Shown: positions 17,981 to 19,192 of the stretch, in pieces
How the letters are laid out: every line of letters starts with the position of its first letter
How positions within the stretch are numbered: the first letter of the stretch is position 1
Assembly (NCBI RefSeq): GCF_002243515.1
Contig: NZ_CP022657.1
Coordinates: forward strand, 1,851,001-1,915,000
Direction: 5' to 3'
Source of the DNA: Tumebacillus algifaecis
GTDB lineage: Bacteria > Bacillota > Bacilli > Tumebacillales > Tumebacillaceae
DNA length: 64,000 nt
Program-made: the position numbers and the translations under genes
Notes under the pieces: generated by a model
Told to the model about the DNA's origin: nothing
Seen by the model: the letters and a program-made list of their open reading frames with translations, nothing else
The model's database searches: none

Positions 17981-18065
17981 TTCGTGGCAAGGTTGGTCAA
18001 ACTAGCGTGTGGATGGAAATATTAGCGTAGCGACGCTTTATAGCCGCGAAGGAGGATCGAGTCAC

Positions 18066-18515
18066 TTGAACCAAATCAAAGAACGATTGGCTTATCTGAA
18101 AGGTTTGGCAGAAGGATTGAACGTAGGGCAAAGCACTCCGGAAGGCCGCGTGCTTGTCGGTATCATGGAAGTCATGAATGAGATGGCTCGCTCTCTTGAT
18201 CGCTTGACGATGATGCAGGATCAATTGGAAGAGTACATCGAAGCGGTCGATGATGACCTCGGAGATTTGGAAGATCACGTATTTGGCGAGAGTCTTGAGG
18301 AAGATGATTTCGAATATGACGAGGATCTTGAGCTGGATGACGACACCGCCATCGAATATTTGGAGATGATTTGCCCAAACTGCGGGGAGACCGTGTTTGT
18401 GGATGAAGATGTATTTAAAGGTGATGAAATTATCGAAGTGCTCTGCCCGGAATGTCAAGAGACCGTTTTGGTCAATGACAACACGGGCGAGGATGAAGTG
18501 ACTACAGACTTGTAG
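18066..18515 (+). CDS. CD1247-type protein with C-terminal zinc ribbon
   Basis: The 149-residue protein begins with the CD1247 N-terminal pattern (NQIKERLAYLKGLAEGL), then a helical region, an extremely acidic middle (EEDDFEYDEDLELDDDT, about 77-95) and a C-terminal zinc ribbon with CPNC and CPEC near 103 and 126. These proteins are often mislabelled AraC-type regulators; the function is unknown. The TTG at 18066 is preferred because AAGGAGG precedes it and the protein then starts as its relatives do. Confidence 0.75.
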   Translation: MNQIKERLAYLKGLAEGLNVGQSTPEGRVLVGIMEVMNEMARSLDRLTMMQDQLEEYIEAVDDDLGDLEDHVFGESLEEDDFEYDEDLELDDDTAIEYLEMICPNCGETVFVDEDVFKGDEIIEVLCPECQETVLVNDNTGEDEVTTDL

Positions 18516-18709: not shown

Positions 18710-18841
18710 GTACCGTCCCTCCTTGGTTTTGTCTTCTCCATTGGTAGTAGATGCAGGTGCAGGAAAGGTTGACTCGTACATGTGTGGAACTTACGAAAAA
18801 GATAGGCGGAATAAAATTTAATATATATTTCAGTAAAACTA

Positions 18842-18871
18842 TTGTACATATTGGAATTATTATGGTATGAT
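18842..18871 (+). promoter_or_regulatory. Sigma-A-type promoter of the small peptide gene
   Basis: TTGTAC at 18842-18847 and TATGAT at 18866-18871 are separated by 18 bases, in an AT-rich stretch. The transcript would start about 30 bases before the ATG at 18906. Confidence 0.65.
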
Positions 18872-18905
18872 TTTTCTGAAAATAAAAACAAGGAGGGAAA
18901 TTACA

Positions 18906-19049
18906 ATGCATGAAAATGGTTTCGTGAATGCAAATGAAATGACTCGTGAAGCGATGTTTGAACTCGATGTTGAAGTGACATCGGTTCAAGCGACGGCTGA
19001 GCGCAACACATGGATTACTGGTGCGAGCTGCCTGTACCCGCCGAAGTAA
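18906..19049 (+). CDS. Candidate class I lanthipeptide precursor (orphan)
   Basis: A 47-residue peptide with AAGGAGGG eight bases before the ATG, its own promoter and its own terminator. Residues 17-20 are FELD followed by VEV, which matches the F-N/D-L-D box recognised by LanB/LanC enzymes in leaders of nisin, subtilin and gallidermin. Twelve residues later comes AER, a plausible cleavage site (nisin has a similar spacing and also ends in Arg). The putative core is NTWITGASCLYPPK, with Thr and Cys four residues apart as in nisin ring A. There is only one Cys, so at most one thioether ring. No lanB, lanC, lanP or lanT gene lies in the window. The leader match is clear; a true modified product is inferred. 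Confidence 0.6.
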   Translation: MHENGFVNANEMTREAMFELDVEVTSVQATAERNTWITGASCLYPPK

Positions 19050-19072
19050 TTGTCATCGTTTGGAAGAGATCT

Positions 19073-19100
19073 GACCTGCTCACAGGTCGGGTCTTTTTTT
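19073..19100 (+). terminator. Rho-independent terminator after the small peptide gene
   Basis: GACCTG and CAGGTC form the core stem around CTCA, extended by outer pairs, followed by eight T residues. It isolates the peptide gene from the exporter downstream. Confidence 0.8.
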
Positions 19101-19192
19101 ATTACACCTTTTCAGACGGAACATGTTTCGCGTACAATTATTACGTGTATCGAAAGAACTAATAGGATTATTTTTGAAAGGACGGGGTGTTT

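Follow-up and report, generated by a model that had tools for sequence, protein, structure and literature searches.

A solitary FELD-leader peptide gene of Tumebacillus algifaecis as a predicted trans substrate of a dispersed class I lanthipeptide system

The window analysed here, a 64,000-nucleotide stretch (C1:1851001-1915000) of the Tumebacillus algifaecis genome, which is available as one contig of 4.517 Mb, carries a small gene, P0001, that raises the question of whether a peptide with the leader of a class I lanthipeptide precursor can be served by enzymes encoded far away from it. The genes around it encode EF-P, a DUF2619 protein, an acidic protein, an MFS transporter and a polysaccharide deacetylase. 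A preliminary description, made from the DNA letters of the window, had proposed that P0001 might be the substrate of LanB and LanC enzymes encoded elsewhere, giving a product with one small ring, and this reading has been strengthened by the comparisons below: we consider it probable that P0001 is a trans substrate of a dispersed class I lanthipeptide system comparable to that of the prochlorosins.

P0001 occupies positions 18906..19049 of the forward strand and specifies a 47-residue peptide, MHENGFVNANEMTREAMFELDVEVTSVQATAERNTWITGASCLYPPK. The frame is also open from an ATG at 18867, which would give 60 residues; the shorter version is favoured because a strong Shine-Dalgarno sequence, AAGGAGG (18890..18896, forward strand), stands nine bases upstream of the start codon at 18906. 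Upstream, a promoter-like site on the same strand (18843..18871), recognized by consensus match, combines TGTACA and TATGAT at a spacing of 17 with the TG of an extended -10 element; its nine matches out of 12 consensus positions are weak evidence when taken alone, as six such sites occur in the 3 kb scanned, against 3.3 expected. Downstream, an intrinsic terminator with a 17-bp stem ending in a U-run (19062..19099, forward strand) is absent from the listing of the consensus scan and is seen upon folding 19058-19105, which yields -23.1 kcal/mol (z = -6.35, with none of 200 shuffled sequences folding equally well). The description of a 47-residue gene with its own promoter and terminator holds, the promoter being plausible and the terminator strong. 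Between 17000 and 21000 of the window no Rfam RNA element reaches its gathering score.

The layout of the peptide is likewise as first described. A FELD box, a leader recognition motif, lies at residues 18-21 (18957..18968, forward strand) in the context FELDVEV, and is followed after 12 residues by Arg33 (19002..19004) and then by a 14-residue tail, the predicted core NTWITGASCLYPPK (N34-K47; 19005..19046), holding T35, T38, S41 and C42. Three residues separate Thr38 from Cys42, the same spacing as between the Thr and Cys of nisin ring A, and a methyllanthionine ring between the two is predicted. For this core the calculated [M+H]+ is 1550.767 when unmodified, and 1532.757, 1514.746 and 1496.735 after the loss of one, two and three waters. 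Arg33 is the putative boundary of leader and core, by analogy with nisin and with peptides of the host's own genome reading ..AARTAVGSC... The resemblance to nisin thus extends over the FxLD box, the Arg before the core and the ring A spacing, whereas P0001 differs from it in having a single possible ring, no cluster and no match to the gallidermin/nisin model (TIGR03731, searched at E <= 0.1).

Membership of P0001 in the FxLD precursor family was examined with a profile of 21 other such precursors from which P0001 itself was left out. This profile gives 26.9 bits for the whole frame, while the next best of 1748 frames in the window reaches 6.6, and 28.2 bits for the 47-mer, a score attained by none of the 19,833 shuffled versions scored (of 20,000 made; best 9.8), with the qualification that five of the 21 rows had entered the profile via weak tblastn matches of P0001 itself. 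A profile built from three genomes of the other genus still gives 22.4 bits (best shuffle 8.9), and one from two congeners, G001 and G002, gives 31.4 bits, which no shuffle attains. With the curated models the situation is more graded: P0001 obtains 16.5 bits (E 0.011) with NF038155, the FDLD family of NCBIfam, and, being below the cut-off of 20, is not filed under it; with NF033457 (elgicin/penisin) it obtains 12.9 bits against a cut-off of 40, and Pfam returns no Nif11 match. Among the 51 rows of a larger profile, A2, which includes P0001, 50 match NF038155 at E <= 0.1 and 20 match NF033457. P0001 therefore shares with the families of these two models the FxLDV box in the leader, the short precursor and the Cys-containing core, but falls under both cut-offs, has a longer N-terminus and is encoded alone. 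Judged by what characterizes a LanA, it has the FxLD box and a Ser/Thr/Cys core, and its genome also encodes LanB and LanC; adjacency to lanB/lanC, which is usual but not obligatory, is lacking.

Compared with its relatives, P0001 has 17 residues N-terminal to the box, where most have 1-7 and a pair from G002 up to 12; its distance from box to first Cys, 20 residues, equals the family median of 20. The closest layout is found in two peptides of the family genome G006 (..NKWSLACTEPPTLV and ..EKWSLACSGPPTNTLAV), both with FELDVQV, Lys, Trp, a single Cys and Pro-Pro, which sit within about 1 kb of lanB. The G002 pair, ..DDRAWAYTMNAPCAWTVK and the Cys-free ..NERWSYSPSRGFVV, is also similar in layout; it is encoded at C6:135503-135764, and an IstB (IS21) gene lies some 500 bases away. 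An ortholog of the P0001 core was not encountered: tblastn in the six other genomes of the family gave weak matches only (best E 0.33), and 32 stretches matching MF[DE]LDV[QE]V in genome contigs included none confirmed as a P0001 ortholog; a query with the host LanB brought up none either, and from both searches near records may have been left out.

The window contains no match to LanB or LanC, in agreement with the earlier statement that modification genes are missing from the vicinity. A genome without any lanthipeptide synthetase, together with homologues in which Cys and FELD box vary freely, had been named as refuting the substrate reading, and the outcome is the opposite: the chromosome encodes a sole full-length LanB (C1:1495652-1497619; PF04738, E 1.6e-198) and one LanC (C1:1491491-1492660; PF05147, E 2.6e-59). 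This locus at 1.49 Mb, whose full lanB is separated from P0001 by about 372 kb, also includes an ABC transporter, whose gene lies between those of the two enzymes, and two FDLD precursors adjoin lanB. Among the matches listed for the transporter none passes an NCBIfam cut-off; it is the presumed exporter of the P0001 product. The host LanB aligns with NisB over residues 63-1045, and the aligned C-terminal motifs FIRYADPEPHIRLRF, YDPEIERYGG and SVIHLHLNRL, which have a catalytic role, recur slightly changed in the eight other full-length LanBs of the family. The only LanC-domain match of the host lies in an open frame of 458 residues, which reaches 71 bits under the LanM model, the cut-off being 304. 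In its alignment with NisC this LanC retains the zinc-site motifs WCYG and CHG; the zinc ligands are described in PMC9889658.

Among solved structures the best matches are 9g04 for the host LanB (E 6.8e-176, aligned over almost the full length) and 8byk for the host LanC (E 1.8e-62). The latter is MadC (PMC9889658) and the former presumably MadB, of the maddinglicin system of Clostridium maddingley. In that system the FDLD box of the precursor MadA continues with VKVK, R161 and R182 of MadB are tied to the box, and changing FDLD to AAAA renders leader binding undetectable, according to the account in PMC12241602. R161 and R182 align with R182 and R208 of the host LanB. Across nine full-length LanBs of the family the position of R182 is kept in eight and that of R208 in six (it is Lys in G003 and G004), with one LanB of G002, on contig C3, differing at both, so that these leader contacts are not strictly kept. 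The likeness to MadA/MadB/MadC lies in these enzyme matches and in the FDLD box; in the host, most precursors lie far from the enzymes.

Further LanB- and LanC-related genes were noted elsewhere in the host and in its relatives. A second PF04738 match of the host (C1:2650099) was set aside as a candidate modifier of P0001, as it is split and belongs to a thiopeptide-like cluster (C1:2642000-2661900) comprising a LanB N-terminal protein, two LanB C-terminal proteins, YcaO, a nitroreductase and a 633-residue protein without a Pfam match, near what appears by eye to be an NRPS-like gene. Full-length LanBs number two in G001 and three in G002. LanC domains at G001 C1:532358-533440 and G002 C2:717209-718291 lie in frames of 821 and 819 residues, sizes that suit class III/IV synthetases, and were left out as lanC. 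In G003 a short LanB N-terminal match (C1:681006-681140), in an 81-residue frame directly beside a precursor, is perhaps the remnant of an earlier local lanB.

The preliminary description had recommended a search of the genome for further peptides with such leaders, and about 23 were found in the host besides P0001. At the level of DNA, the pattern F-[D/E/N/K]-[L/F]-D-[V/I/M] occurs at 53 sites of the host genome, whereas its reversed form occurs at 16, and 21 of the 53 are small precursor frames as judged by layout. The pattern ignores Cys, and yet 20 of these 21 frames hold one, the exception being a copy broken by a stop; a 23-residue Cys-free frame at C1:2569006 fits the layout loosely and was kept out of the count. 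Nine of the 21 frames, including the broken one, form an array at 1.793-1.795 Mb, and seven form another at 3.732 Mb, which the profile extends by two. The stop-split copy lies at C1:1793223-1793327, and what lies upstream of it is unlike the corresponding regions of the two further array copies examined. A DDE transposase adjoins the 3.73 Mb array, and in G001 a recombinase zinc-ribbon gene adjoins a precursor.

Searched at E <= 10 with a profile of 22 rows that includes P0001 (A1), the seven family genomes yield 26, 22, 30, 22, 23, 0 and 16 matches, the weakest being chance matches. The counted set comprises 127 FxLD precursors in six genomes. It was obtained from the profile matches by removing three rows of the host (the two halves of the split copy and one chance frame), shortening one G006 frame to an inner start and adding one G002 peptide, with start codons picked by script; weak rows of G003 and G006 (E up to about 6) were retained because they have the box and lie next to other precursors. 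Their boxes read FDLD in 110 cases, FELD in 15, and FQLD and LNLD in one each. Cys is present in 124 of the 127, a count that is partly circular since the profile holds both box and Cys; with this proviso the residue does not vary freely among homologues, the behaviour that had been named as damaging to the lanthipeptide reading. Fourteen precursors have just one Cys and three have none (G001 C1:19866, G002 C24:159 and G002 C6:135642); two of the latter end in GWTISE and HTYTISA, and peptides of this kind cannot give thioether rings on their own. Of the 127, 45 are found on the same contig as lanB/lanC and no more than 10 kb away, and 82 are not; as distances were taken within contigs and G002, G003, G004 and G006 are drafts, some of the 82 are possibly nearer. 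In the contiguous host genome the 24 counted precursors are distributed over six sites, two of them within 10 kb of lanB/lanC and 22 not.

The precursors also keep company with LanC across genomes. With profile A2 at E <= 0.01, six of 14 genomes of the order have precursor matches (25, 18, 27, 21, 22 and 13) and eight have none, and LanC, searched in the same 14 genomes at E <= 1e-5, is found in exactly the same six. The corresponding Fisher probability (6/6 versus 0/8), computed by hand as 1/3003, overstates the association because the genomes are related. LanB was searched in the seven genomes of the family, and G005, which is inside the family, is missing LanB, LanC and precursors alike. 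Across 398 genomes of the class, with at most 19 candidates scored per genome and at E <= 1e-4, the matches listed fall in those six genomes and in two of another genus, which have one peptide each among these matches, elgicin-type-like by eye.

The surroundings of P0001 bear on its history. Promoter, gene and most of the terminator are contained in an AT-rich segment of about 306 bp (18790..19095) whose GC content is 39%, compared with 53% in the window; a value this low is found in 1.2% of 306-base stretches, and the upstream part of the segment (24% GC) contributes heavily to the value. In G001 and G002 the neighbourhood from EF-P to the MFS gene is retained at 79-83% DNA identity without the segment: 41 bp in G002 take the place of 18790-19095, and 83 bp in G001 that of 18758-19098. 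The stretches compared at either end of the segment share no exact direct repeat of 8-15 bases. Both a gain in the host lineage and a loss in the congeners fit these observations. The acidic protein (18009-18515), which lacks a Pfam match at E <= 1e-5 and has a CPNC and a CPEC pair close to the C-terminal end, falls in the region conserved in both congeners.

These comparisons also decide upon a role of the adjoining transporter, which the preliminary description had suggested as an exporter of the peptide. The MFS protein is 88-89% identical in G001 and G002, where its gene occupies the same place without the peptide gene, so that the MFS gene is not dependent on P0001 and was rejected as its specific exporter. 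With it recedes the view of P0001 as an unrelated small secreted or signalling peptide with a chance FELD, possibly exported by this MFS: the presence of its own transcription signals beside the MFS gene would suit such a peptide, but the profile and shuffle tests speak against a chance resemblance, and we regard it as highly improbable. Nothing was found in support of the signalling role that had been mentioned as an option.

The same segment lends some colour to a different reading, namely that P0001 is a relic, an acquired precursor copy with its signals remaining that is no longer modified or exported. The AT-richness of the segment, its lack at the same place in two congeners, the failure to find an ortholog with a conserved core in the six family genomes or the genome contigs, and the existence of a broken copy in the 1.79 Mb array all agree with this, whereas the frame, the Shine-Dalgarno sequence, the 20-residue spacing from box to Cys and the terminator are intact and LanB and LanC are present in the host, which makes decay an unlikely, though not negligible, explanation. 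Less probable still is that the leader is bound by LanB/LanC with a product that is merely dehydrated, or acts as an intracellular regulator or decoy, rather than being exported as a cyclic peptide. This would draw on the occurrence of the same leader on the three Cys-free peptides, of which G002:C6:135642 belongs to the pair whose first member resembles P0001; against it, P0001 has Cys42 with Thr/Ser at ring-forming distances, and LanC is present.

For P0001 as a trans substrate, the established class I pathway and the binding data for MadB (PMC12241602) suggest the following course. The single full-length LanB would bind the FELDVEV leader through its recognition domain and dehydrate Thr/Ser residues of the core through glutamylation; LanC would then close one ring, most likely by adding Cys42 onto the residue derived from Thr38. 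The product may be carried out by the ABC transporter of the lanB/lanC locus, and the leader would be removed, probably after Arg33; any activity of P0001 is likewise presumptive. The same LanB and LanC are predicted to serve about 23 other FxLD precursors across the chromosome. On this reading the system would be a class I counterpart of the prochlorosins. More broadly, and with somewhat greater reserve, we favour the view that in this bacterial family one or a few LanB/LanC sets, a single one in the host, tailor the products of about two dozen self-contained precursor genes genome-wide, and that the system evolves by dispersal of small cassettes, some of which are gained or lost at unrelated places, with cores that include single-ring and Cys-free forms.

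Parts of this picture have precedents: class I lanthipeptides whose leaders carry FDLD are already known (NF038155), as are a class I cluster with several precursors in Tumebacillus and far-off precursors in class II. Tumebacillus flagellatus has a class I cluster that encodes 10 distinct precursors (PMC7268733), probably of the same lineage as the host system; the survey reported there was restricted to genes no more than seven away from LanC, whereas 82 of the 127 precursors counted here are not within 10 kb. The class II prochlorosins comprise 29 precursors, many of whose genes are remote from that of LanM, and resemble the host system in that numerous scattered precursors, alike in leader type but variable in their cores, go with a single synthetase, as outlined in PMC7268733 and PMC12328550. 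The dispersal is found in the host genome (24 precursors at six sites), but the class II LanM and the Nif11-type leader of the prochlorosins are not, their counterparts being LanB plus LanC and an FxLD leader. In the literature searched, in which subscription journals were little covered, no report of a genome-wide dispersal of class I precursors was found. Work on the class I lanthipeptides of Pedobacter lusitanus may have a bearing on class I systems with multiple precursors.

With 22 of 24 precursors in the host and 82 of 127 in the six genomes lying beyond 10 kb, mining confined to enzyme neighbourhoods would miss most precursors of this kind. If the enzymes act in trans, the precursors would constitute a natural class I library for the leader specificity of LanB and its tolerance of diverse cores, and the design of one enzyme with many substrates would reach beyond class II.
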